DNA of 64,000 bases from Lachnospiraceae bacterium (GTDB lineage Bacteria; Bacillota; Clostridia; Lachnospirales; Lachnospiraceae): assembly GCA_017503735.1 (NCBI GenBank), contig JAFVSN010000026.1, positions 1-64,000 of the forward strand, read 5' to 3'. The notes under the pieces are model-generated. The model was given only the letters and a program-made list of their open reading frames with translations. It did not search any database and was not told where the DNA came from. Numbering within the stretch: position 1 is the stretch's first letter; the number at the start of each line of letters is the position of its first letter. The position numbers were made by a program, and so were the translations under genes. This document shows positions 44,285 through 56,571 of this stretch, one piece after another.

Positions 44285-44572
44285 GGGACTGACGCATGTA
44301 AATGCGCAGTCCCACTCTTGTAGTTGAGGTTCTAAAAAAAGTTGATATTGACAGATTCATTTTTTAAAGCGCAACACTCCGTCAAACTTCCTCTAAGAAC
44401 GACTAGGACGCTCGGGAGCGACCTCGCGCCCAGTCTTTTCTAAGAGGCGATTTCGACTTCGTTAAAAGCGCGCCCCTTCGGGAAATCAAAAATAAATCTG
44501 CCAATATCAACTTTTTTACTATACTTTATGAATCACAAGAGTGGGACTTCGACATTCAAATTTGCGTCAGTC
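44285..44572. repeat. ~288-bp nested imperfect palindrome (MITE-like element or structured RNA)
   Basis: Three blocks recur in inverted order: GACTGACGCA (44287-44296) with 44563-44572; AGTCCCACTCTTG (44308-44320) with 44536-44548; and an A-rich ~30-bp arm (44334-44365) with 44488-44517, two mismatches. Inside are smaller nested stems: CCTCT/AGAGG, GACT/AGTC, and CGCTC-GG-GAGCG (44409-44420). The left end can also fold alone (44285-44313, perfect but for one bulge). It fills the 315-bp gap between trpS and the small gene at 44594. No gene is seen in it. Confidence 0.75.
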
Positions 44573-44593: not shown

Positions 44594-44830
44594 CTACTCC
44601 TCAAATTCGACTGTTACATAGAAGCCTTTGCTGTTTTCTTCTACGTCTTTTACTACTCCGGATAGTTTTGTCAGCCGTTCGCGGAACGGGATGTTTCCTG
44701 ACATGGCCACTGCCGGTTCTATGACATAATAGAATATCGCATTCGGAAGGGTAGATTCACGGATTTCTACCTCTTGTCCCACTTCCACAAGACCGGGACG
44801 TTCCATTTTAAATTGCATGGTTCTTGACAT
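44594..44830 (-). CDS. Small unknown protein at the end of the restriction operon
   Basis: A 78-residue protein with a beta-rich pattern ([47 protein letters not shown]), perhaps an SH3-like or OB-like barrel. No family recognised. AGGAGGAAATATC precedes ATG at 44830, and hsdR ends 11 bp upstream, so it is probably co-transcribed with the restriction genes. Confidence 0.65.
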
Positions 44831-44841
44831 GATATTTCCTC

Positions 44842-47800
44842 CTATGCTACTGCATTTGTATTTATCTGTTCAATTACCTTTCGGATACCCGCCCAAAGAT
44901 TCAGGTCTGTGAATATCTCTACAACACTACCCTTGTCCGTAAACGGAGATTCCTGTAATACCGACAAGTCTTTCATAATACCGTTATGCACAATGTACTC
45001 CACTATCTGATTGACAAAGTAGATTTGCCGACTGTCCATATTCGTTTCATTAAGAAACTCCGAAAAAGCTTCCTTTGCAGCATTCATATCTAACCCGACA
45101 ATCTCACGAACAAATTCACCCAACGGCTTAGAACCATACTCTGCCTCGTAGTCTGCTTTTGTACCAATCTCTTTCCACAAAATATCTTCCAATACCAAAA
45201 TATCACTGGCTGTCAACGGTTTGTTTGTCTTTAACTTTGCAATAACAATATTGTCTTGATGCTGACGTACATAATACTCTGCCTTTGCCTTATAATTTTT
45301 CAGTTCATCATTCTCTAAATCAGACTCATTCCAATCTACCGATAAAATTTCATCCGTAAAATTAGTAATATACTTCTGATGACCACTTGTCGGTAAATAC
45401 TTCATCAGGTTACGAAGATTTTTCCGAATATACTCAAACTCTTCAATTCCTGCGTCCTCCACATAACTGGTATGAAGAATCTTATTAATCAATTCTGCCT
45501 GTACTTGAATTTCCGGAATATTGGCAACACTCGCGATACCACTGACCTTTCTATACAAGTCGCTCTTTGCCTTTCCGTACTTCTTTCCCGCAAGGTATGC
45601 CAGTTCAATACCATACATAAGTGCATCAAAACGTACTGCACTTGTTTCATCACCATCCGGAAGAATCAACGGAGCCAGTTCATCTCGTACCATCAAAGTA
45701 TCTTCATAAGTCAGTGTTTGATAATTATACGCTGTAGAATATGTATCCACATATTTTAAATGTTGACGCACGGCAAAATTATCTCTGTTAAGTTCCTGAA
45801 CTTTTCCCGTCATATCTCCAACTAACTTGTTTCTGTAGTCAATAAGCGGTTCTTCCTGATACTGCAAATCCTGTAGTTTATATGCCATCTGAAATTCCAG
45901 ATTAAAGATTGCACCCTGTAATGCCATCATGTTTGCAGTTGGCTTTCCCTGACCCATTCGAAAGAATTCAAAGTTCCCACAAAAATCAAAAATGTAAAAC
46001 TTCTGCTTATCTTCACCATCTATAAGTCCCGGACACAAACGAGTTCCTCGTCCGATCATCTGCCAGAACTTTGCCTTACTCATGACCTTCTTGAAGAACA
46101 CCAGATTTAATACCTCCGGCACATCAATCCCCGTATCAAGCATATCTACCGATATCGCAATCTGCGGGAACTTCTTTGAATCCGAAAATTCGTCAATTGC
46201 GCTTTGCGCGTAAGTCATATAGTTATCAATAACCTTTGCAAATGCCTGTCCGTTTTTATCTAAATGGGAGTATTCCTTATTAAATACTTCCAAAATTTTC
46301 TCTGCATGGTCATGATTCTTTGCAAAGATAATAGACTTGCCAAGCATCTCACCATACTGTATCTTTAATCCGTCCTCCATCAACGTATGTAATACCTGCT
46401 TAATGGTATCTTCGTTAAAAATCCATGTATTCAATGCAGAGGAGCTGATTCTTTCCGGCAACACGCCATCTTCGGTTTCAAAAGTATCTTCATACAGTTC
46501 TTTGTCTTCTTCCGATAAGTCATCATACACGATACCCTGCTCAATGAATTTAAGTTTTGTCTCTACCGACATAAAATCAACAAGGTATCCGTCTTTTACC
46601 GCCTGTGCCAGTTCGTATCCATAGGTTGGGACCCCATTTTCCAGTTCAAAAATGCTATAAGTATTTTTATCAATCTCATCCTTCGGTGTGGCAGTTAAAC
46701 CAACCAACGGTGCATCAAAATAATTGAAAATATCTCTGTATTTGTTATAGATGGAGCGATGGGCTTCGTCGCAAATAACCAAATCAAAGTGGCCACAGGT
46801 AAACAACTTTTTCTCTTCCTGGTCTTTGACAGAGTCTATGCAATTCATCATCGTCTGATAAGTAGAAAAAATACAATGTGCATTATAATTATCCTTCTCT
46901 TCCACCAAATTAGAGCATGACAAATCGGGCAAAAGATTTACAAAACTTCTTTTTGCCTGTGTGACAAGAGAATTTCTATCTGCCAAGAACAAAATGTTTT
47001 TTACCCATCCTGCATTTAGAAGTACCTTACATAATGCAATCACCGTTCTTGTCTTTCCCGAACCGGTAGCCATAACGAGCAATGCTTTTCTGCGATTCTT
47101 TTTATCAAAACTGTCACACACCGCCTTTATGGCACCTTCCTGATAATAACGTCCGGCTATATCTTTATCTACGGAAACATGGGCAAGGCTTGTCCGCATT
47201 GCTTGCAAATTAAATAACTTTTCTAAGTCTCTTTTAGAATAAATAACCGCGCATTTTCTTTCCGGATACTGATTATCTATAATCCTTGTTTCAAAACCGT
47301 TCGTCAGGAAAACCACCGGTCTTCGATGATGCTGTTTCTCAAGTAAATCAGCATACAGCTTTGCTTGCTGTCTTCCCTTTGCCACATCCACACAGGTACG
47401 CTTTGCTTCAATCACCGCCAGCGGTCTGTGGGCATCATCATAGAGTACATAATCCGCCCGCCCCATTTCTGACTTATTCGGCATTCCCTGAATTTCAACT
47501 TCATTTATCCAATCCTTGCCTTCCGTCCATCCGGCATCCAAAAGCATAGAATCAATATAAATCTTTCTAGTCTTATACTCTGACAAATCCAAAGGTTTCG
47601 GCACATAGGTCTGATGCTGTTCTTCACGTCTTGCAGTCAATTCTTCTTTTAATGCTTTATTTTCAGCAAGTAATGCTTTCAAATCCACATCAGCATCAGA
47701 CGTTTTCTTTACTTCCGTCGGCTTCTGTGGCTTTTCCAAAAGAGTATCGTCATACTTCCGCTCTTCATAAGAATCCGCATAACAATACGCGACAAAATCA

Positions 47801-48153
47801 AAAAAGATAAAAAGATTCTGCAAGCAAAGCTTTGCTTCATCCATGGTCACTTTCTTTCCATTATGTGCCGCTCTGTTCCCAACTTTACGAATTAAATCCA
47901 AACGCTTCCATAAAACATCATCTACTAAATCATGAAAATCCTCGGTACTCATCAAACTAATCAAGGTATCCTGATACGGCATTTCCAGAGACTTGTCCAC
48001 GGAATACATCCACTTGATCGCAAATTCCATGGCACGCCGACAGTTGATCACACTGGATTCCAAATCAATGTTCAATATCTTTTCTGCCGCAATCGCAACA
48101 TCGGCAAAACTATTAAATTTTGACTCTTGCTTTAGATAATCAAAGTTGGTCAT
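44842..48153 (-). CDS. hsdR: Type I restriction enzyme R subunit, EcoEI/DUF4145 type
   Basis: ATP-driven translocase and nuclease of the type I complex. The 1103-residue protein has an N-terminal DUF4145-like domain (~15-140, [16 protein letters not shown]) and a coiled coil. The HsdR_N nuclease follows with a PD-ExK core ([20 protein letters not shown]), then the SF2 helicase with [15 protein letters not shown] (Walker A), [11 protein letters not shown] (DEAH) and [12 protein letters not shown] (motif VI). The C-terminus is EcoEI_R_C-like. ATG at 48153 has AAGGAG upstream; the TTG at 48174 precedes this site. Appears intact. Confidence 0.94.
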
Positions 48154-48183
48154 ATAGGATTCACTCCTTGTCAAAATGATTCT

Positions 48184-49203
48184 TTATTTTTGCGTAACCG
48201 CTTTCACCATCTTATCAAAATCAGATTCTATCGGTTGTGTTTTATTAAAAGTTTCATATTCTGCATAAGCCTTGTCTAATGCCTGTTTATGAGAGACTCT
48301 GCCATTATCCTTTAATACATCATATCTTCTAAACTCTAAAAAAGCATTAATACTATCGGAGAATTCCTGCATGGTAAATACATTTTCACGCTCTATTAAA
48401 TCCTCTATATAATCAAAATATCCAGTCACCGTACGTTCTAACTGCCGAATTTGTTTCTCATCCAAATAATTCTTTGCCACCGGTGTATCAGACTTCAATA
48501 TACGCCCATCGGGAGCATTTTTCCATGTAGTCAAGCCCATATGTTCCTTCGTGTGATCCGCAGAATCATAAACAATTTCTGCCGCAGTTTTACCCGTTAT
48601 CGCATAATGAAATTTATTTTGCACTGTGGAAAAGAATTGATATGTAACCTCCGAATCCTTTTCATAATCAATACTGCACTCCGCAAATATATCCGTAATC
48701 TGTTGCCAGATTCGCCTCTCACTTGCACGGATAGAACGCACTCGCTCCAGTAATTCACGAAAATAGTCTTTTCCGAAAGTTGTTTTCGCAAGCCTCAATC
48801 GCTCATCATCCATGACAAATCCTTTTATCATGTATTCCTTTAATACATTGGTTGCCCAAATACGAAAGTGTGTCGCTTGTATGGAATTTACTCTGTAACC
48901 CACGGAAATAATGGCATCCAAATTATAGTAATTTGTAACAGACGTTTGTGTCTTACCTTGAATTGCACCATGTGGAGTGGGTATTTCCATTTTGGAAACA
49001 ACCACTTCTTCAACCAATTCTCCCTGTTCAAAAATGTTTTTTAGATGCTTACTAATTGCCGGTTTTTGTACTCCAAACAGCTCAGCCATTGCTTTTTGTG
49101 TAATCCAAATAGACTCATCTTTTATCAATGCACTAACAGTTACAGAATCATCCTCTGTACGATACAATACCATTTCCATTTGTTTTGTAATATCTGTACT
49201 CAT
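48184..49203 (-). CDS. rhuM: RhuM-family protein
   Basis: A 339-residue protein of the RhuM family (virulence RhuM). The N-terminal half has WITQKAMAELFGVQKPAISK HTH-like pattern and KTQTSVTNYYNLDAIISVGY, then YRVNSIQATHFRIWAT, the family core. The C-terminal half has a Fic/Doc-related helical pattern (EIVYDSADHTKEHMGLTTWK). Biochemical role is unknown, but these genes commonly sit inside type I restriction loci. It lies between the HAD gene and hsdR in the same direction, with 18- and 30-bp gaps. Confidence 0.88.
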   Translation of the reverse strand: MSTDITKQMEMVLYRTEDDSVTVSALIKDESIWITQKAMAELFGVQKPAISKHLKNIFEQGELVEEVVVSKMEIPTPHGAIQGKTQTSVTNYYNLDAIISVGYRVNSIQATHFRIWATNVLKEYMIKGFVMDDERLRLAKTTFGKDYFRELLERVRSIRASERRIWQQITDIFAECSIDYEKDSEVTYQFFSTVQNKFHYAITGKTAAEIVYDSADHTKEHMGLTTWKNAPDGRILKSDTPVAKNYLDEKQIRQLERTVTGYFDYIEDLIERENVFTMQEFSDSINAFLEFRRYDVLKDNGRVSHKQALDKAYAEYETFNKTQPIESDFDKMVKAVTQK

Positions 49204-49221
49204 ATAACTCCCCTTTAAAAT

Positions 49222-50397
49222 TTATTCAAAATGATTCTTTACCTGTAATGCCTTTTCTGTTTCCTTGTCTAACATCCCGATAATCTTTTGATAAAATGCT
49301 TTTACATCAATATCATTAAGTAAATACCGCACGGGATGATTATTCAGCGCTATATCAAGTAACATATCAATTTCACTTTGAGACCAATCCTCAATTAATA
49401 ATAATTCACGCATAATCGTATGTGTAGTAGCAAAGTTCCTACTTCCATCTAAAGAAAAAATCAAATTCATGCGCATCTGCGTATTGTTATCATTTTCTTC
49501 ACACGCCTTAGCATCTGCATGCTCTTTCTTACAAGAAAAATATTTTTCTTCAAGCACTTCATTTGCCGCAGTTCTAACAATAATTGCTCTTACCAATTTA
49601 TCCAACTCAGAATTTTCGGTATAATCTGCCGGTGCAAAATACTTAATACGATTATCCCCTAACATTTTAAACACCTTGGATTTATCTAACGTATCATTAC
49701 TATATACCCCTATGGAATGTCCTCCGTACGCATTAACTAATTTCATACACGGAATGTCAGTAGCACTGTCCCCGATATACACAATATTTCTGAACGGAAC
49801 ACGAATGTCCTCCGGTGCAAAATAATCATTTACACGAGAATCATTTACATCCAAAACTCCTTTTTCAATCCGGAACAAAAACTGTGTTTTATTAGTATAG
49901 TTTATTACTTGTGCAGGCCAAATCCCTACACCTCTTTCATTAAATAAAAATGAGCTTGCGTAAATTCTTTCAAATGCACCTGCCTTTGCAATTGACGTTC
50001 CTTCTATCATTTCTTTAAGACCTGAAGAAATAATATAATGCTCCACAATTACATTATTTTCTATACCAAACTTCCGAATTTTTTCAAACCATTCTTCTAC
50101 GCCGGGAAACAGTTTTACTTTTGAACCGTATTCAGCTAATGTTTCTCTGGTAAATAAAATTCGACCTTGAGCCTCATCTACCATCTTATACATATATGCC
50201 AGATTAGTATCCATCTCATTTGCTTCAGCAAAATCATTAGATTCTTTCCAAAATGTCTGTACATCCCCTTTAAAAACCTTCTGAATATAACCTTGTGCCT
50301 GCATATCATCAGGAGATAGGGTCTTATCAAAATCATAACAAATTGCCAAGACTGGCCTATCTTCTTTATATTTTCTTTCATACTCTTTATCAGCCAT
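49222..50397 (-). CDS. HAD-superfamily phosphatase-like protein in the restriction operon
   Basis: A 391-residue protein. HAD motif I is YDFDKTLSPDD (nucleophile Asp22, acid Asp24), motif II IISSGLKEMI, motif III Lys within FLFRIEKG, and motif IV YIGDSATDIPCMKL, so an active phosphatase is predicted. The last ~110 residues form an unrecognised helical domain (RMNLIFSLDGSRNFATTHTI, MLLDIALNNHPVRYLL). Substrate unknown; it may act on a nucleotide or phosphoprotein. It sits 18 bp after hsdS2. Confidence 0.8.
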   Translation of the reverse strand: MADKEYERKYKEDRPVLAICYDFDKTLSPDDMQAQGYIQKVFKGDVQTFWKESNDFAEANEMDTNLAYMYKMVDEAQGRILFTRETLAEYGSKVKLFPGVEEWFEKIRKFGIENNVIVEHYIISSGLKEMIEGTSIAKAGAFERIYASSFLFNERGVGIWPAQVINYTNKTQFLFRIEKGVLDVNDSRVNDYFAPEDIRVPFRNIVYIGDSATDIPCMKLVNAYGGHSIGVYSNDTLDKSKVFKMLGDNRIKYFAPADYTENSELDKLVRAIIVRTAANEVLEEKYFSCKKEHADAKACEENDNNTQMRMNLIFSLDGSRNFATTHTIMRELLLIEDWSQSEIDMLLDIALNNHPVRYLLNDIDVKAFYQKIIGMLDKETEKALQVKNHFE

Positions 50398-50415
50398 ACG
50401 GTTTCTCCCTTCATC

Positions 50416-51525
50416 TCAAAATACAAACAAAAGCATCCTCGTCCCTTTTGTTACTCTCTGTGCATCAAATTTCAATTTGTCGACTAGAGTTACAAAGTCA
50501 GCAAACTGATTTTGCGCATCTATAGATGGTACCATTACATCCAGCTTCTTTGCCATAGCTATAGAAAGATATGCCACCGTAGAACCCGCCTGTAATGCAT
50601 CAATCTGTTTTCTAAAACCTGGCATTTCAAATAAATACGAAATATATAAAGGTGTCACTCTACTATCATAATGGGATAGCCATGTAATCATTCCGTCTTG
50701 AAAATAGAATTCATCATCTTCCTTTACTATATAACACCGCCCCAATGTTCCCCTTGCTGTAAGTAAAATATCTCCGCTTTGCGGAACTAATCCTTGTTCT
50801 TTCAGTTCCTCATACCGTGTCTCTGGAATAAACAAATCACACTCTAACGAACCATTGTCCATTCTATTTACTAAATCAGATATTCTGAGGAACGGTATGC
50901 CTGTCAGACTCTGCTCGCTTTGATATATGCGCTTGCTAGAACCAACATCACAGAGAGCTTCCAGTTTACATATTTCCCATTTTTGTTCATTAATATCTGG
51001 ATTGCCAAAGAGTTCTACAAATCGGGATTTGATAAGATTGTCAAGTTCTTCGATTTCTTTTCGCCTTTTATCAATTATATTTTGAACAGAATCCAAGATG
51101 CCCACAATAAAAATCTGTTCGTCCTTTGATGGTACTCCAAAACTATATTTCTTTATATCTGGAACAGTCAACTGCGGAATTGATGTTCCGCTTGATTTTG
51201 GCTTGCAACTTTTTAATGCATAATGCATATACCTCAAATCAACCAACTCTTGCTTTGGTACAACTGTAATCAATCGAACTACTGGCACAAATGGCTCTGT
51301 TCTAATCGCAGTATATCCAATAGTTCCTCTTGCAGCCACCGTTACACTTGGCTCATATTCCCTTGCTTCGTCTGTATATCCATATAATCCTTCGTCTCTT
51401 TCCGCATTTGCATAAATTGGTACTGTAAACTCTTCTGTTTTCACTTCTGAAAATCTATCCTTTGGCACATCTCCTCCAGCATAGATTCTTTTACACAATT
51501 TTTCTATACAGATACTCTCTTGCAT
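50416..51525 (-). CDS. hsdS: Type I restriction specificity subunit (second copy)
   Basis: A 369-residue DNA-recognition subunit with two target recognition domains: TRD1 (~5-140; SGTSIPQLTVPDIKKYSFGV) and TRD2 (~185-330; GSTVAYLSIAMAKKLDVMVP). They are joined by the helix EELDNLIKSRFVELFG, identical to that in hsdS1. The C-terminal helix lacks ~10 residues compared with hsdS1. GTG at 51540 lacks a ribosome site; ATG at 51525 has GGAG nine bases upstream inside the 26-bp repeat shared with hsdS1. It follows the recombinase gene by ~30 bp and is in the same direction, so it can be expressed. Confidence 0.88.
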   Translation of the reverse strand: MQESICIEKLCKRIYAGGDVPKDRFSEVKTEEFTVPIYANAERDEGLYGYTDEAREYEPSVTVAARGTIGYTAIRTEPFVPVVRLITVVPKQELVDLRYMHYALKSCKPKSSGTSIPQLTVPDIKKYSFGVPSKDEQIFIVGILDSVQNIIDKRRKEIEELDNLIKSRFVELFGNPDINEQKWEICKLEALCDVGSSKRIYQSEQSLTGIPFLRISDLVNRMDNGSLECDLFIPETRYEELKEQGLVPQSGDILLTARGTLGRCYIVKEDDEFYFQDGMITWLSHYDSRVTPLYISYLFEMPGFRKQIDALQAGSTVAYLSIAMAKKLDVMVPSIDAQNQFADFVTLVDKLKFDAQRVTKGTRMLLFVF

Positions 51526-51529
51526 CCTA

Positions 51530-51555
51530 ATCATCTCCACAAATCTGAATTTGCG
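51530..51555. repeat. 26-bp direct repeat, copy at hsdS2 5' end
   Basis: Identical to 53771-53796. Includes CAAATCTGAATTTG, a short palindrome with 5-bp arms, and the hsdS ribosome site. A nearby 8-bp match (TGCATCCT) extends the similarity. Copies are 2241 bp apart and flank hsdS1 and the recombinase. Confidence 0.9.
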
Positions 51556-51556
51556 G

Positions 51557-52528
51557 TTATCCGATGAATTTTCTATGAGAATTCTTTACATTGCTCTGAT
51601 TCACCATTGCATAATGCATCGTAGTATCAATCTGCTGATGCCCTAACAGGCGTTGTACTTGCTCTATCGGCATTCCTTTGTCTATTGCTTTGGTTGCCAT
51701 AGAACGCCTGAATTTATGCGGATGTACTTTTTCAATATCGAGTCTTCGCCCAAGATTTCTCAATCGTATCTCTACTCCACTTATCTGTAATCGTTCACTT
51801 GGCTTGTCCAATGTCACGAACAATGCTTCGTTTCTATCTGTTCTACTTTTCAAATACTCCTGTAAATGAATTTTAGCCCTTGCATCAAAGTACACGCGCC
51901 GTTCCTTATTTCCTTTACCATACACGACACATTCTCGTTCTTCAAAGTTAATGTCTGCCTTGTTGAGATTCACCAATTCTCCCACTCGTATTCCAGCTGA
52001 ATACAACAAATCAATAATTGCCAAGTCCCTAATGTTTTTACAGTTATCACGCAAAACTTCAATGTTTTCATCTGAAAAAGTTTCCTTCACCCGCGTGCCG
52101 GTTCTCACCTTATGAATTCGTCGTATCGGACTTTTCAATATATGATCTTCATCTTCTAACCACGAAAAGAAACTTGATAGATTCCGACGAATATTGTCAA
52201 TTGTTACTCGACCACAATTATTCTTTACCTGATACTGCGTTAAATACTCTCGTAAATCCTCTGTTGTAATCTGTCTTACCGGTGCCTTTATATCAAAAAA
52301 CATATTTTGGATCGTACTTCGATAATACTCTATGGTACGTTCAGAGCACCCCTCAATCCTTTTGGCAGCAACAAACATATCAAGGTACTCTTTATTATCA
52401 ATCTCTCTTGTAATATCCAGCTCTGACCTCTGCAAATATTTCAGCAGACATTCCTGTAATCTTCGCATCTGCTGGACATCAAGGCATTCCGACATATCAT
52501 TCAGTATTTTACAAATCGCATTCTCCAT
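51557..52528 (-). CDS. Tyrosine recombinase between two hsdS genes
   Basis: A 323-residue XerC/D-type site-specific recombinase. It has an N-terminal SAM-like core-binding domain (~45-130) and a catalytic domain with Arg in YSAGIRVGELVNL, Lys in GKGNKERRV, HPHKFRRS (HxxR), LLGHQQIDTTMHYA (His) and nucleophile Tyr306. All catalytic residues are present. Recombinases placed next to hsdS genes in other species rearrange the specificity genes, which is the likely role here. Its ribosome site is in the loop of the 52528-52565 hairpin. Confidence 0.93.
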   Translation of the reverse strand: MENAICKILNDMSECLDVQQMRRLQECLLKYLQRSELDITREIDNKEYLDMFVAAKRIEGCSERTIEYYRSTIQNMFFDIKAPVRQITTEDLREYLTQYQVKNNCGRVTIDNIRRNLSSFFSWLEDEDHILKSPIRRIHKVRTGTRVKETFSDENIEVLRDNCKNIRDLAIIDLLYSAGIRVGELVNLNKADINFEERECVVYGKGNKERRVYFDARAKIHLQEYLKSRTDRNEALFVTLDKPSERLQISGVEIRLRNLGRRLDIEKVHPHKFRRSMATKAIDKGMPIEQVQRLLGHQQIDTTMHYAMVNQSNVKNSHRKFIG

Positions 52529-52565
52529 TTTGGTATACTCCTTTTTTTCACCCAGTATACCAAAA
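52528..52565. promoter_or_regulatory. 12-bp inverted repeat around the recombinase ribosome site
   Basis: TTTTGGTATACT (52528-52539) and AGTATACCAAAA (52554-52565) are perfect complements around 14 bases. On the minus strand the loop holds AAAAAAAGGAG and the stem base meets the ATG at 52528. It could be an autoregulatory site, a translation control hairpin, or a recombinase binding site. Confidence 0.75.
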
Positions 52566-52594
52566 TCACTTTTTTCTGCAAGAACACATTCAAC

Positions 52595-53830
52595 TTATCC
52601 GAAATGCTTCTGCATAAGTGAATCCATAAGCTGCTGTGTTTCATCTAAGGATTTCTGCACTTCAACTTTCAATTTGTCGACTTGTTTAACAAACTCAACA
52701 AACTGTTTCTGAATGTCCATAGGTGGAACAAGAATCTCAAGTTTTCTAATATCACCCAATGAAATAAATTTTTGTGTCCCGCCTCTTACCTTACTCAAAA
52801 CAGCATCATCGAAGTAATCCGACTGAAGCAAGGCACGAATATAAATATTCAACACACTTGAATCAGCTCTGAACTTAATTAGAGCCACATTCTTAATAGC
52901 AAAATCGGGTTCTATATCAACGATTACAGGCTTTCCAACTGTTCCTATCATAGGCATTATGATATCGCCACTATCGACCTTTGACCTTTCGTTGATTTTA
53001 TTGAAGTCTGCTTCACAAATGAGAGAACAACCTGTCAGGTCGATTTTTCCACCTGTTACGTTTTTTGATGTAACTAGCGGATACCCTGTTTCATAATACT
53101 TCGGTGAGTCGTGTGTTCCATCTCTAACATCGCAAACTGACCCGAGACTATCTTTTTCCCACCCAAAAGGATTCAGAACCGTATCCCCAAACAGCTCGAC
53201 AAATCGGGATTTGATGAGGTTATCCAACTCTTCTAACTGTTGCCTTCTTTTCTTGAGAATTTCTTCTGTACGAGAAAGGATATTTACTACTTTTCTTTGT
53301 TCTTGAACTCCAATATCTGGTATCTCAAATTTTAAAAATTTTGCTTGATTAAGATGTGCTATTGTACATCCGACCTTAATCTGCTCAATGAAGCGGATAA
53401 AACTACCACTTCTTAATGCATACACTAAATATGTTGGTAATAAAGCTTCTTCATTGCGTGGTCGTACAACAAATACCCCACTATTAAGCGTTGCTGGCTT
53501 ATCAAATTTATCTACAATTGCAACTTTACCTATCGTCCCATCTTTTGTTACAAGGACATCATTCTCCTGTAATTGAATATGACTATCTTGATCGTATCTA
53601 TCCTTTGTTACATAATGACAATTCTGAAAATCTATCACACCATCAAGAAAATCCACACCTGTAACCAAATAATAATCACCCGAATCAAGATATTCTGCTT
53701 TTGTTAACCCTTGCCACCCTATTCTCGCATGTAAGGTACAAGCATCTTCTATTTTTTGCATCCTCATCTCATCATCTCCACAAATCTGAATTTGCGCGAG
53801 TAATTTGCTATACCGTTCGGTTGTCGGCAT
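52595..53830 (-). CDS. hsdS: Type I restriction specificity subunit (first copy)
   Basis: A 411-residue DNA-recognition subunit with two TRDs (~25-175 and ~215-365). The first ends in GCTIAHLNQAKFLKFEIPDI and the second in GTQKFISLGDIRKLEILVPP. The central helix is QLEELDNLIKSRFVELFG; the C-terminal helix reads DKLKVEVQKSLDETQQLMDS. ATG at 53830 is the outer start but has a poor ribosome site; ATG at 53767 or 53761, after GGAG in the direct repeat, may be the true start, giving about 388-390 residues. It follows hsdM by 37 bp. Both TRDs differ from those of hsdS2. Confidence 0.9.
   Translation of the reverse strand: MPTTERYSKLLAQIQICGDDEMRMQKIEDACTLHARIGWQGLTKAEYLDSGDYYLVTGVDFLDGVIDFQNCHYVTKDRYDQDSHIQLQENDVLVTKDGTIGKVAIVDKFDKPATLNSGVFVVRPRNEEALLPTYLVYALRSGSFIRFIEQIKVGCTIAHLNQAKFLKFEIPDIGVQEQRKVVNILSRTEEILKKRRQQLEELDNLIKSRFVELFGDTVLNPFGWEKDSLGSVCDVRDGTHDSPKYYETGYPLVTSKNVTGGKIDLTGCSLICEADFNKINERSKVDSGDIIMPMIGTVGKPVIVDIEPDFAIKNVALIKFRADSSVLNIYIRALLQSDYFDDAVLSKVRGGTQKFISLGDIRKLEILVPPMDIQKQFVEFVKQVDKLKVEVQKSLDETQQLMDSLMQKHFG
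53771..53796. repeat. 26-bp direct repeat, copy at hsdS1 5' end
   Basis: Identical to 51530-51555 and in the same orientation. Here it reads in frame as part of the outer hsdS1 start (QIQICGDD); at the other copy the same frame ends in a stop codon. Confidence 0.9.
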
Positions 53831-53867
53831 AACTCAACTCACTATCTCTACTCTATCAACTTCACCA

Positions 53868-55370
53868 CTATAATTCCAACAGAGCCTTCAACTCTGCCAT
53901 TTCCATTGCAATCTCTGCCTCTATCTTCTCGATATTCGCAAATATTTCACTTGTCGGCGGATATTCCACTGCCTTGTACTCTACCTGCTTATACTTATTG
54001 ATGGATAAATCATATTCATTACCCACAATCTCATCCTTCGGTACAAAGAAAGACTTATCGGTTCTCTTTCTGCCAGCCTCCCCCTCTAAGTTATGGAATC
54101 TGGAAATAATATCACTAATATCATTCTCTGCTACCGGAGTTCTCTTATCATCCAGACTGAGTCCGTCAGCGGTCATATCATAGAACCACACCTTGTCTGT
54201 TCCGCCATGCCCCGTCTTGGTAAAAATCAGAATACCGGTAGACACTCCCGCATATGGCTTAAACACACCGGATGGCATAGAAATGACCGCTTCCAGTCTA
54301 TTTTCCTCTACCAACTCTTTACGAATTGCCTTGTGGGCTGTAGAAGAACCGAACAATACGCCGTCCGGAACGATACACGCACATCGTCCTCCCACCTTAA
54401 GCATCCGTACAAACGCCGCCAAAAACAGCAACTCTGTCTTCTTAGTCTTACATACCTTTAATAAATCCGCAGATACAGTATCCGCATCCAAACTGCCCTT
54501 AAACGGCGGATTTGCCAAAATTAAAGAATACTTTTCCCGATCCTGATTCTGGTCCGACAGGCTATCCCGGTATTCAATAAACGGACTTTCCACACCATGC
54601 GTCATCATATTCATTGCACCGATACGAAGCATAGTTCTATCCATATCAAATCCATGGAACATATGATTCATATAGTGGTCTTTTTTTTGCCGTTCAAAAA
54701 AGATTTCTTCTTTGTGATGCTCTTTTAAATATTCCCCTGCCGTCACAAGGAACCCGGACGTGCCGCATGCCGGGTCACAGATGATATCATCCGGTTTTGG
54801 TTGCATCAGTTCCACCATCATACGAATGATATGACGCGGTGTTCTAAACTGTCCGTTTCGTCCGGACTGTGCTATCTTGGAGAGCAGATACTCGTAAACA
54901 TCCCCTCGGATATCCACATCCTTCACCTCTGCCATCAAACGATAAATATCATCCAATGCGTCTACTACTTTAGAAAGTAATAACGGAGTCGGCAATTTAA
55001 AAATAGCATCGTCCATATATTTGGAATACGCACTGTTCTTGTCTCCGTGAAGATTCTTGATAAACGGGAATACCCATTCCTGCATCACGGAATACATCCG
55101 TGCCGCCGGAAAATCATGAAATACAGACCATTTCAACTGGGAACCGTCAATAGTTCTGTCACCAATCTGCACCTCATTCGCAAACATACTCTTATACGGT
55201 AATCCGAGCATGGCACTCTCTTTTGCCCTCAAATTATCCGTATCATCCAAATCATGGATAAACATCAAATATGTTACCTGCTCTATTACATCCAGTGGAT
55301 TTACCAATCCACCGGCTGCAAACACATCCCACATACTATCTATTTTATTTTTCAATTCTCCGGTAATCAT
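53868..55370 (-). CDS. hsdM: Type I restriction methyltransferase M subunit
   Basis: N6-adenine methyltransferase of the type I complex, with an N-terminal helical HsdM_N domain (~5-140) and catalytic domain. The SAM-binding motif is CDPACGTSGFLV (~199-209) and the catalytic motif IV is NPPF (287-290). At 500 residues it is full-length. Its ATG overlaps the fic stop by 4 bp (ATGA), so fic and hsdM are translationally coupled. Confidence 0.96.
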   Translation of the reverse strand: MITGELKNKIDSMWDVFAAGGLVNPLDVIEQVTYLMFIHDLDDTDNLRAKESAMLGLPYKSMFANEVQIGDRTIDGSQLKWSVFHDFPAARMYSVMQEWVFPFIKNLHGDKNSAYSKYMDDAIFKLPTPLLLSKVVDALDDIYRLMAEVKDVDIRGDVYEYLLSKIAQSGRNGQFRTPRHIIRMMVELMQPKPDDIICDPACGTSGFLVTAGEYLKEHHKEEIFFERQKKDHYMNHMFHGFDMDRTMLRIGAMNMMTHGVESPFIEYRDSLSDQNQDREKYSLILANPPFKGSLDADTVSADLLKVCKTKKTELLFLAAFVRMLKVGGRCACIVPDGVLFGSSTAHKAIRKELVEENRLEAVISMPSGVFKPYAGVSTGILIFTKTGHGGTDKVWFYDMTADGLSLDDKRTPVAENDISDIISRFHNLEGEAGRKRTDKSFFVPKDEIVGNEYDLSINKYKQVEYKAVEYPPTSEIFANIEKIEAEIAMEMAELKALLEL

Positions 55371-56431
55371 AACAAATCATTCTCCCTGTTCCATGTGTAT
55401 TTTGTAAAACGTCCACCACTAATCTTTAGTATTTCTCCGGCAGAGAGCAACTCATTTAAAGTCTTCTGTATCGTTGCCTGACTGATATCCGGGCATTTTG
55501 CCATAAGTTCCGCCTTGGTCACTGTTCCTAACGTATTCTTTATCACTTCTCGAACCCGCTCCGGCTTTGACAGGCCACTCGTTGTAATCAGCTTTACACG
55601 TGCCGAAAACTCTCGGTAGGTACTTACAATAATACCAAGCATATATCTCACAAAAGGCTCATAGTCATTCTGTTCCTCATGCCACCCATAGGAACTTTCT
55701 TGTAACACTTCGTAATACGTGGTCTTTGACTTCTCTATTGCTTTTTCGATACTGATATATTTCCCTACAATATACCCCGCACGATATAAAAGCAATAAAG
55801 TTAACAAACGACTCATACGACCATTTCCGTCATTGAATGGGTGAATGCATAGAAAGTCAAGTACAAACATAGGAATTATCAACAACGGGTCTACCGTTCC
55901 ATCTGCCAATACTTCCTCAAAAGCTTTGCATAATGCATTGATTGCTTCCGATGTTTCCCATGCCGGTACCGGTTGAAAACGTACCTTCTTATTTCCCCGA
56001 CTATCGATTTCTGCAATGACATTATCCGAACTCTTATACAACCCTCCAATATTCACACCTATAAATTTATATAAGTCCCTATGAAGTTGTAAAATAAAGG
56101 TCGGTCGCGGAGGTATATGGTCGTGAGATTCATGAATCGTATTTAAAACATCTCTATACCCCGCTATTTCCTTCTCATTTCTTGTTTTAGGCATTGTTTT
56201 ATCTTTTAACAACATCTTCAATCTCTCATCTGAAGTATAGATACCCTCAATCTTATTGGATGCCTCAGTACTTTGTATTTTAGCTATTTCCATAAGCTGT
56301 TCAAGCGTGTCGGCTTTCGCCTCAATAAACAGTGTTTGTTCACCTTTATACTCATGAATACACGTAAGAAGTGATACAATATCAGGTGTAAGAAGCTTTT
56401 GCCATGTTTTTGTATAATCAATCGTTCTCAT
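55367..56431 (-). CDS. Fic-family AMPylator with N-terminal inhibitory motif and C-terminal HTH
   Basis: A 354-residue Fic protein. The core motif HPFNDGNGR (197-205; catalytic His197) predicts transfer of AMP to a target protein. An upstream S58-xxx-E62-G63 (SNKIEG) matches the inhibitory helix of class II Fic proteins, so activity is probably self-restrained. Residues ~285-350 are a winged HTH (VTKAELMAKCPDISQATIQK), suggesting DNA binding, possibly autoregulation at the palindrome upstream. It is the first gene of the restriction operon and overlaps hsdM by 4 bp. GGAG precedes ATG at 56431. Confidence 0.93.
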   Translation of the reverse strand: MRTIDYTKTWQKLLTPDIVSLLTCIHEYKGEQTLFIEAKADTLEQLMEIAKIQSTEASNKIEGIYTSDERLKMLLKDKTMPKTRNEKEIAGYRDVLNTIHESHDHIPPRPTFILQLHRDLYKFIGVNIGGLYKSSDNVIAEIDSRGNKKVRFQPVPAWETSEAINALCKAFEEVLADGTVDPLLIIPMFVLDFLCIHPFNDGNGRMSRLLTLLLLYRAGYIVGKYISIEKAIEKSKTTYYEVLQESSYGWHEEQNDYEPFVRYMLGIIVSTYREFSARVKLITTSGLSKPERVREVIKNTLGTVTKAELMAKCPDISQATIQKTLNELLSAGEILKISGGRFTKYTWNRENDLL

Positions 56432-56479: not shown

Positions 56480-56571
56480 ATTATATCTCTTCAATTACAT
56501 AAAAGTCAAGTTCAATTTACTATTTTTCTTCAAAATTAGTAAATTGAACTTGACTTTTAGTAAATTAAACT
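56480..56571 (-). promoter_or_regulatory. Promoter and palindromic operator of the fic-hsd operon
   Basis: Minus strand: TTGACT (56509-56504; 18-bp spacer) and TATAAT (56485-56480). A perfect 22-bp inverted repeat (56501-56522 with 56537-56558; arms begin AAAAGTCAAGTTCAATTTAC) overlaps the -35. A third half-site, TAGTAAATTAAACT, lies at 56558-56571. A regulator binding here would block transcription; the Fic HTH is a candidate. Confidence 0.8.

Follow-up and report, generated by a model that had tools for sequence, protein, structure and literature searches.

How is a Type I restriction operon put together that opens with a Fic gene, carries a recombinase between two specificity genes and encloses two further candidate defence genes? 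The question is raised by a row of nine open reading frames (ORFs), all on the minus strand from position 56431 to 44594, in a 64-kb stretch of contig JAFVSN010000026.1 of a Lachnospiraceae bacterium (the window), which comes from a draft genome of 3.08 Mb in 58 contigs. In order, they encode a Fic protein (354 amino acids), HsdM (500), HsdS1 (411), a tyrosine recombinase referred to as REC (323), HsdS2 (374), a HAD-like phosphatase (391), a RhuM-family protein (339), HsdR (1110), and a last product of 78 amino acids. Fic and hsdM overlap by 4 nt, and the gaps that follow hsdM are 37, 66, 16, 18, 18, 9 and 11 nt. Pfam, PADLOC and NCBIfam concur on the families wherever a model exists, and the presence of hsdM, hsdS and hsdR with their domains places the row among Type I restriction-modification systems. 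The original prediction, a reading of the window's letters, had proposed these nine same-strand genes in this order and at these coordinates, all of which was confirmed, and eight of them belong to the families it named. It had interpreted the row as a layered defence behind one operator-promoter.

The reading that we consider likely is a Type I operon controlled by Fic through an operator, with an hsdS shuffler resembling that of the pneumococcal tvr locus, a leader limiting REC expression, and a cargo slot holding HAD and RhuM. Judged from sequence, what is new would be the combination of an operator-bound Fic enzyme heading a widespread Type I operon with a three-site direct-repeat shuffler whose store lacks a tail.

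Relatives were found by a contig scan with an alignment of nine HsdM proteins (the window's and eight relatives'), and the best 80 loci of a longer list, with HsdM 76–96% identical, were compared. ORFs were called mechanically and labelled by similarity to the window's proteins. Loci with HsdM number 80, counting the window and leaving out L146, which has no intact HsdM ORF; 58 loci, window included, are complete from hsdM to hsdR. Fic lies at most two ORFs upstream of hsdM in 52 of the 76 loci that have at least 600 bp before hsdM (truncated Fic counted in), and 45 of 48 measured gaps are between -4 and 15 nt, bearing out the proposed coupling of the two genes. A recombinase between two hsdS genes also recurs, and REC is found in 11 of the 58 complete loci. 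HAD is present in four of these (one split) and RhuM in two, while 52 hold other ORFs of at least 100 amino acids between hsdM and hsdR. Going by these frequencies and the varied cargo of relatives, Fic–hsdM is the core, REC–hsdS a frequent option, and HAD and RhuM two of many passengers. The layered defence was thus supported in its coupling of Fic to hsdM and its recombinase between hsdS genes, but not in treating HAD and RhuM as fixed machine parts; gene order in relatives, proposed as its check, gives for HAD and RhuM, though not for Fic, the random absence that had been named as refuting it.

The evidence for control by Fic comes from the protein and the DNA ahead of it.

55367–56431, minus strand: Fic, class II layout, proposed operon autoregulator, with a SNKIEG inhibitory motif and the catalytic motif HPFNDGNGRMSR.
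55388–55567, minus strand: C-terminal winged helix of Fic, residues 289–348 with recognition helix 318–330, from an AlphaFold2 model and covariation.
56490–56569, minus strand: inverted repeat with the proposed Fic operator, from a repeat search and related operators in relatives.
56512–56547: proposed operator core, TCAATTTACTA-N14-TAGTAAATTGA.
56480–56509, minus strand: promoter TTGACT-N18-TATAAT, its -35 box within the outer right arm of the palindrome.

The protein has the class II motif order, (S/T)xxxE(G/N) N-terminal to HPFx(D/E)GNGRxxR. S58, E62, G63 and the motif residues H197–R208 are invariant in 33 aligned Fic proteins, window included, in line with the self-inhibited enzyme that had been proposed; a regular expression for the catalytic pattern fails in three of 57 Fic proteins, all outside the 33 aligned. 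The AlphaFold2 model (mean pLDDT 86, pTM 0.77) places a winged helix at the C-terminal end. Foldseek puts the N-terminal part on the Bordetella Fic 8uqu with a TM-score of 0.91 by target, and the whole protein fits Shewanella SoFic 3eqx more loosely. PADLOC returns a SoFic-type match, and the NCBIfam SoFic model scores 58 bits, far under its cut-off of 550.

The inverted repeat before Fic is 38 nt long and 87% complementary. The adjoining promoter is the best of 33 promoter-like sites, matching 11 of 12 positions; such sites overall are not in excess (33 against a shuffle mean of 40.5). The exact pattern of the operator core occurs at a single place in its own genome, exact matches only being counted. 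Operators of relatives are palindromes of the half-site AATGAYKAAATTRA with arms mostly 8–9 nt apart and sometimes 28–30 nt. A score of at least 22 out of 28 was reached upstream of Fic in 52 of 57 loci with Fic (including the near-duplicates L075/L150 and L093/L183), upstream of hsdM in one of 21 loci without Fic, in 59 of 4000 random 260-nt windows (true operators possibly among them) and in 42 of 1710 shuffles. A half-site matrix gave at least 14.7 in 53 of the 57 loci with Fic, and at least 15 in 15 of 3000 random windows. The group without Fic omits L122 and L156, where the upstream DNA is too short, and both groups omit loci with truncated Fic (e.g. L130, L137, L158, L170), L164 (53%), and L128 and L166 (distant Fic, 26%).

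Beyond the hsd family, 19 Fic loci were fetched. Scores of at least 14.7 were found in L221, L227, L229 and L236, a related palindrome scoring 5–11 in five, and none in ten. The contig of L229 ends inside Fic and it was not counted as hsd-free, which leaves three Fic genes that carry the operator and have no hsd gene detected beside them. The genes after Fic encode a DUF4143 ATPase, a Schlafen-type helicase and a SIR2 protein in L221, and a HipA-like protein and an AbiEii-type ATPase in L236; those in L227 are on the other strand. Because these three carry the operator, it is read here as belonging to Fic and travelling with it rather than with hsd, in a pair that can head other defence-like rows. 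In L222–L226, Fic genes 58–59% identical have the helix DISKVTVERTL and a different palindrome (AAATGATGGAGATA type) near the start codon, possibly a second class of operator specificity. L106 has an HsdM 96% identical to the window's, a Fic of only 71% identity and a different operator, which suggests that the Fic–operator unit is replaced independently of hsdM.

Covariation between protein and operator was scanned with background correction over 284 variable Fic columns and 16 operator bases, or 4544 pairs, in 48 non-redundant loci (the 57 minus four without a usable operator and minus near-copies at 97%). The top pair joins Fic residue 319 to operator base 6: T or K at 319 goes with C at base 6, and other residues with a base other than C, in 45 of the 48 loci. 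On a tree built from Fic with the winged helix left out, parsimony requires six changes of residue class and eight of the base, yet only nine jointly. Five independent pairs of loci differ at base 6; three change in step at residue 319, two show no residue change, and none changes in the opposite sense. In the model, residue 319 comes second in the recognition helix (318–330), the usual place of base contacts.

Because the operator is kept with Fic and residue 319 covaries with base 6, Fic most likely autoregulates its own operon, as CccR does its own gene. CccR is a Yersinia type VI secretion system effector and a class II Fic protein with a C-terminal helix-turn-helix (HTH); it acts on an inverted repeat near the -35 and -10 boxes to repress the promoter of its own gene (PMC9755527). 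The features described for such an autorepressor, a C-terminal HTH and an inverted repeat at its own promoter, are both found in the window. The C-terminal winged helix would bind the palindromic operator beside the -35 box, and operator-bound Fic would regulate the operon, most likely by repression. Direct binding, repression as the sign of the effect and a link to AMPylation are what we infer from sequence and analogy, and Fic may have a second, enzymatic role beside autoregulation. A bolder extension, to which we give little credence, is that Fic and its operator form a portable dual-state controller of defence operons, in which one protein sets transcription, restriction and shuffling, operator occupancy toggles it between AMPylating and deAMPylating states, and the substrate is a protein of its own operon (HsdM, HsdR or the recombinase). 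If true, this would be a Type I counterpart of the C-protein timing switch and would also cover the SIR2/Schlafen row of L221 and the HipA-like/AAA row of L236.

The second part of the reading concerns the specificity genes.

52595–53830, minus strand: hsdS1, the hsdM-side copy with tail ..DSLMQKHFG, proposed expressed specificity subunit.
53771–53796, minus strand: N site of hsdS1, a 26-nt direct repeat with core CAAATTCAGATTTG.
53200–53213, minus strand: M site of hsdS1, CAAATCCCGATTTG.
52663–52676, minus strand: C site of hsdS1, CAAATTGAAAGTTG, one mismatch to the palindrome.
51557–52528, minus strand: REC, XerA-like tyrosine recombinase, above the cut-off of NF040815.
51530–51555, minus strand: N site of hsdS2, a 26-nt repeat identical to that of hsdS1.
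50416–51540, minus strand: hsdS2, proposed storage copy, no similarity to the conserved tail past the C site.
51018–51031, minus strand: M site of hsdS2, CAAATCCCGATTTG.
50466–50479, minus strand: C site of hsdS2, CAAATTGAAATTTG.

REC scores 250 bits against the XerA/integron-integrase model NF040815 (cut-off 220). The pattern CAAAT-N4-ATTTG occurs five times in the window against 0.30 expected, and all five are within hsdS1–REC–hsdS2. Its centre is TCAG at the start (N), CCCG in the middle (M) and TGAA at the end (C) of the gene; since the centres differ, crossover should be limited to like sites. The start site is typically AAATTCGGATTTGTAGGGATGA, ~26 nt ahead of the start codon, so that a ribosome site would move with the cassette. 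Among 17 loci, window included, with both hsdS genes on the same strand, direct repeats (exact, at least 12 nt; the sites are often imperfect palindromes) were found at M in 17, at N in 15 and at all three in ten. These repeats measure 12–63 nt, mostly under 36 nt. L059, outside the 17, gave no repeat. The two hsdS genes of the window share one orientation with no exact inverted repeat of at least 12 nt between them, which is not the layout of an SpnIII-type inversion.

The sharpest evidence for a shuffler is a contrast between the tails. The conserved tail (DSLMQ) past the C site is present in the hsdM-side copy in 15 of 15 same-strand loci and in the downstream copy in none of the 15, a count that leaves out L040, L153 and L059 (downstream copy fragmentary) and L175 (inverted). 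Such a pattern is expected if the cassette moves and its outer flanks stay put. The second hsdS, which had been described as complete, has an ORF that begins at a GTG inside the repeat (51540) and lacks the C-terminal tail of hsdS1. In keeping with crossover between like sites, 111 of 113 pairs of target recognition domains (TRDs) that match at 60% identity or more over 120 amino acids occupy corresponding positions in their genes. Within same-strand REC loci, six of 17 such pairs join an upstream to a downstream hsdS, not counting L160 (recombinase 2 kb beyond hsdR) and the inverted L175; with them the figure is nine of 21. In L127 and L136 the first TRDs are 96% identical, and the second TRDs form no pair at 60%.

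Loci without REC complement this picture. There, 41 of 45 long hsdS genes end in an LMQ.YFG-type tail, including a second common ending, ..LKKALMQKYFG, and four (L140, L171, L172, L184) are tail-less, stopping near the C site. An N site (at least 15 of 21 positions) accompanies all four tail-less genes and ten of the 41 tailed ones. These four loci look like candidate products of an N x N excision of hsdS1 and REC; either their tail-less hsdS works or the locus is off. The exact M core is found in 21 of 35 copies from loci with REC and 22 of 51 from loci without. N sites specific to REC were considered and rejected: N-like sites are enriched with REC (15 of 20 loci) and present in 19 of 60 loci without it.

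The target-recognition gene can thus probably be reshuffled by a built-in recombinase. The reaction itself we infer from the sites, the homology boundaries, TRD sharing across loci and the excision-like relatives. In the proposed mechanism specificity would be expressed from hsdS1, hsdS2 would serve as a store that lacks the C-terminal tail, and the XerA-like recombinase would swap TRDs between the two at the position-specific N, M and C sites. Because both genes point the same way, exchange would occur by excision and reintegration rather than inversion: a circle carrying the recombinase would be excised and then reintegrated at another site. Swapping the first TRDs would take N x N excision and then M x M reintegration; swapping the second would take M x M and then C x C. 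When the hsdS–REC–hsdS DNA was compared with ten genomes of the genus, its own included, for switching in other strains, only short matches in two were found outside its own.

A more distant set broadens the picture of the recombinase family. L046–L054 are nine distant hsd loci whose recombinases are 59–62% identical to REC. Together with L074 they carry TAAAT-TAT(T/C)-(A/G)TTTA repeats, direct and inverted, in the 5-4-5 layout of CAAAT-N4-ATTTG. As most of L046–L054 have oppositely oriented hsdS pieces, one recombinase family seems to serve both direct and inverted geometry. L175, of the same HsdM family as the window, has inverted hsdS, a recombinase 61% identical to REC and the HAD, which suggests that direct and inverted shufflers can substitute for one another within a single type of operon. 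The window's own genome also holds a fragment of a second related tyrosine recombinase (G000:C28:1568-1945, L189), 65% identical over 126 amino acids.

REC is preceded by a palindromic leader of its own, so the operon may have more than the single operator-promoter originally envisaged.

52527–52566, minus strand: leader palindrome of REC with 13-nt arms and a 14-nt loop, overlapping the start codon, TATACT in the left arm.

In 19 leaders, pairing was scored between 10-nt arms whose ends lie at most a few nt from the REC start codon. The set comprised recombinases of at least 60% identity and at least 250 bits, with L115 and the window added by hand and L045 dropped as a near copy of L044; L046, L047, L048, L051, L053, L058 and L175, whose start was not placed, were left out. 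The 190 pairs divide into 153 Watson-Crick, 20 G-U and 17 mismatched, with no mismatch in nine leaders, one in three and two in seven. Over 200 shuffles of the leaders the maximum was 118 Watson-Crick pairs, and 153 with G-U pairs added. As arm sequences differ (GGTATAC/GTATACC, GATATAC/GTATATC, TGGTAC/GTACCA), it is the pairing that is conserved rather than the letters. No T-run was seen at the palindrome. The favoured reading is that a leader hairpin limits REC expression, as tvrR has a hairpin; the conserved pairing would suit an RNA hairpin or a DNA operator alike. A promoter of REC's own is only a possibility: TATACT in the left arm has TTGCAG 16 nt upstream, where the -35 matches three of six positions, and it is not listed in the promoter scan.

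Between hsdS2 and hsdR lie the two genes that the original prediction had made part of the machine.

49222–50397, minus strand: HAD-like phosphatase, variable cargo, PADLOC PDC-S34.
48184–49203, minus strand: RhuM-family protein, variable cargo, PADLOC PDC-S05.

The PDC labels we take to mark candidate defence entries. Among the first 25 families listed for 104 scanned cargo ORFs of at least 120 amino acids are AbiH, HipA, SieB, Abi-alpha, a Pycsar TIR effector, Bro-N, DUF559 and PADLOC candidates. RhuM relatives are also present in two incomplete loci (L132, L149). In 200 genomes of the family, HAD was found in 15 and RhuM relatives in 77. With detection by similarity to the window's genes only, an HsdM-like ORF was in reach of RhuM in two of 12 fetched loci; most HAD loci had none. 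Five long HADs from other genomes of the order had no detectable hsd gene nearby; ten proteins around four of them (L261, L262, L264, L265) comprise RecQ, AAA, peptidase S58, phytase-like, an oxidoreductase, two ABC proteins, Mrr and two without match. HAD and RhuM would hence be exchangeable defence cargo in a slot of the operon. HAD as a fixed partner of REC was considered (REC in three of four complete loci with HAD and eight of 54 without), yet rejected as a rule given the five long HADs outside detectable hsd loci. A second RhuM-family gene, 46% identical, is found in the window's own genome (G000:C41:6059-6985, L190).

The remaining members of the row are assigned as follows.

53868–55370, minus strand: hsdM, by family models.
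44842–48174, minus strand: hsdR, by family models.
44594–44830, minus strand: ORF of 78 amino acids, directly after hsdR.

The 78-amino-acid ORF had no family match in Pfam, PADLOC or NCBIfam and blastp found nothing like it among the ORFs called in the compared loci. Just past the end of the operon, at 44290–44570, is a ~260 bp element with ~60-nt inverted ends. It gives 24 matches in its own genome, one being itself and two its own ends, and by these repeats it is a family resembling miniature inverted-repeat transposable elements.

Several points weigh against the preferred reading. Consensus and matrix of the operator come from the very Fic loci that were scored, which leaves the group without Fic, with its one good site, as the fair contrast and sole outside control. 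The operator is absent in four of the 57 loci with Fic, the window's own is an outlier (AAATAGT instead of AAATGAY), and just four of the 19 Fic loci outside the hsd family have one. Sequence kinship inflates covariation, and two of the five independent pairs lack a change at residue 319. On the shuffler side, N-like sites are not exclusive to REC, and four loci yielded no intact hsdS other than a tail-less one, so that copies of this kind may be functional. The leader search was tied to the start codon from the outset, and the palindrome could be a DNA operator. Lastly, Fic and REC do not co-occur (REC in eight of 35 loci with Fic and three of 21 without); the two as one module were tried as an idea and rejected.

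Among the alternatives, a layered defence machine, with Fic, HAD and RhuM dedicated to modifying or guarding the restriction complex or the host when modification fails, gains from the three genes sharing one row, from PADLOC listing their families as defence or candidate defence, and from the frequency of REC beside HAD. The rarity of HAD and RhuM, the unrelated families that share the slot (AbiH, HipA, SieB, TIR and others) and the five HADs outside detectable hsd loci make it very improbable. A more serious competitor, though still one we would not bet on, has Fic acting mainly as an effector against phage or in addiction: an autoinhibited AMPylase whose release halts growth, with a winged helix that only keeps the level of Fic itself low and hsd genes as promoter passengers. 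Its invariant catalytic and inhibitory motifs, the SoFic-type match, the operator-bearing Fic genes without detectable hsd and the description of CccR as both toxin and autorepressor (PMC9755527) all suit this idea. Against it, gaps to hsdM of -4 to 15 nt in 45 of 48 loci put hsd behind the same operator regardless; the two readings are compatible rather than exclusive.

Two further alternatives concern the hsdS pair. Exchange could proceed by ordinary RecA recombination or gene conversion, with REC a mobile element that has decayed or plays no part in it. In favour are the conserved segments of hsdS, which offer homology for recombination, a stop inside REC in some relatives (L056, L059), and the N-like sites that persist in loci without REC. 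On the other hand, the repeats are short and in the window contain one 5-4-5 palindrome; similarity of the tail ends at the C site in the downstream copy in all 15 loci; and the related recombinases of L046–L054 accompany TAAAT-TATY-RTTTA hsdS repeats of the same layout, all of which renders this alternative unlikely. Somewhat less doubtful, and still improbable, is that hsdS2 also works as a specificity subunit, so that two specificities would be active at once, whether or not switching occurs. It is a long intact ORF with both TRDs, its N repeat has a GGAG-type ribosome site before an ATG, and the four loci without REC whose tail-less hsdS is the only intact one fit the same idea. The downstream copy nevertheless lacks the conserved tail in all 15 same-strand loci, and 41 of 45 long hsdS genes of loci without REC keep it in some form. 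The preferred reading of a Fic-controlled operon with a shuffling hsdS pair keeps its place as the likely one.

Its interest lies in two gaps that the literature describes. Class II comprises most Fic proteins, said to have almost no known functions (PMC9755527), and how defence systems are controlled is reported to be much less understood than how they act (PMC12255303). Both gaps would have one testable answer in a Fic protein that covaries with its operator and stands at the head of a widespread restriction operon. The HsdM family also shows a three-site direct-repeat specificity shuffler outside streptococci, and a slot collecting unrelated defence genes helps to separate core parts from passengers. 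No Fic protein controlling a Type I system was found in literature searches without bioRxiv and most subscription papers.

Among known systems, several regulators resemble the window's Fic. RptR (PMC12255303) is likewise encoded at the head of a Type I operon, one whose hsdS and hsdR enclose an embedded system, and it binds short promoter palindromes. It differs in being a small alpha-helical protein acting on TAGCTA, and no Fic domain is mentioned for it. CbFic2 shares the N-terminal inhibitory helix and C-terminal HTH, and DNA binding is proposed to switch it from AMPylation to deAMPylation; in contrast to the window's Fic, it is described as a host-directed enzyme and was tested with random DNA (PMC10628234). 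CccR is likewise a class II Fic with a C-terminal HTH and binds an inverted repeat near its own promoter, with arms 26 nt apart (PMC9755527); operators of the present family mostly have arms 8–9 nt apart and a Type I restriction operon behind them.

For the hsdS pair, inverting systems such as SpnIII/cod also use a tyrosine recombinase of the locus to exchange TRDs at repeats inside hsdS, but with inverted genes and inverted repeats, whereas the window has direct repeats only (PMC7394358). The pneumococcal SpnIV/tvr locus, for which excision-reintegration with circles has been shown (PMC6265443), resembles the window's pair. According to that description, the stretch from hsdM to hsdR in its 2+2 form holds a tyrosine recombinase with hsdS genes of one orientation on either side; direct repeats that share a core lie at the midpoint and tail, N-terminal and C-terminal TRDs stay in their places, and a hairpin precedes the recombinase gene. 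The layout and the midpoint and tail repeats are found in the window, which differs in a third site type before the first TRD, in sites that are 14-nt palindromes with site-specific centres, in a downstream hsdS without C-terminal tail, in a Fic–winged helix protein at the head of the operon, and in a leader palindrome that abuts the start codon with no T-run. The Phd-Doc pair (tvrAT) that accompanies tvr is missing beside REC, where only 66 nt separate hsdS1 from REC and 16 nt REC from hsdS2. Since the pair is missing and circles are here a prediction, the locus is not filed as tvr, yet on sequence and analogy it would work like tvr in its specificity genes and like CccR in its Fic protein.

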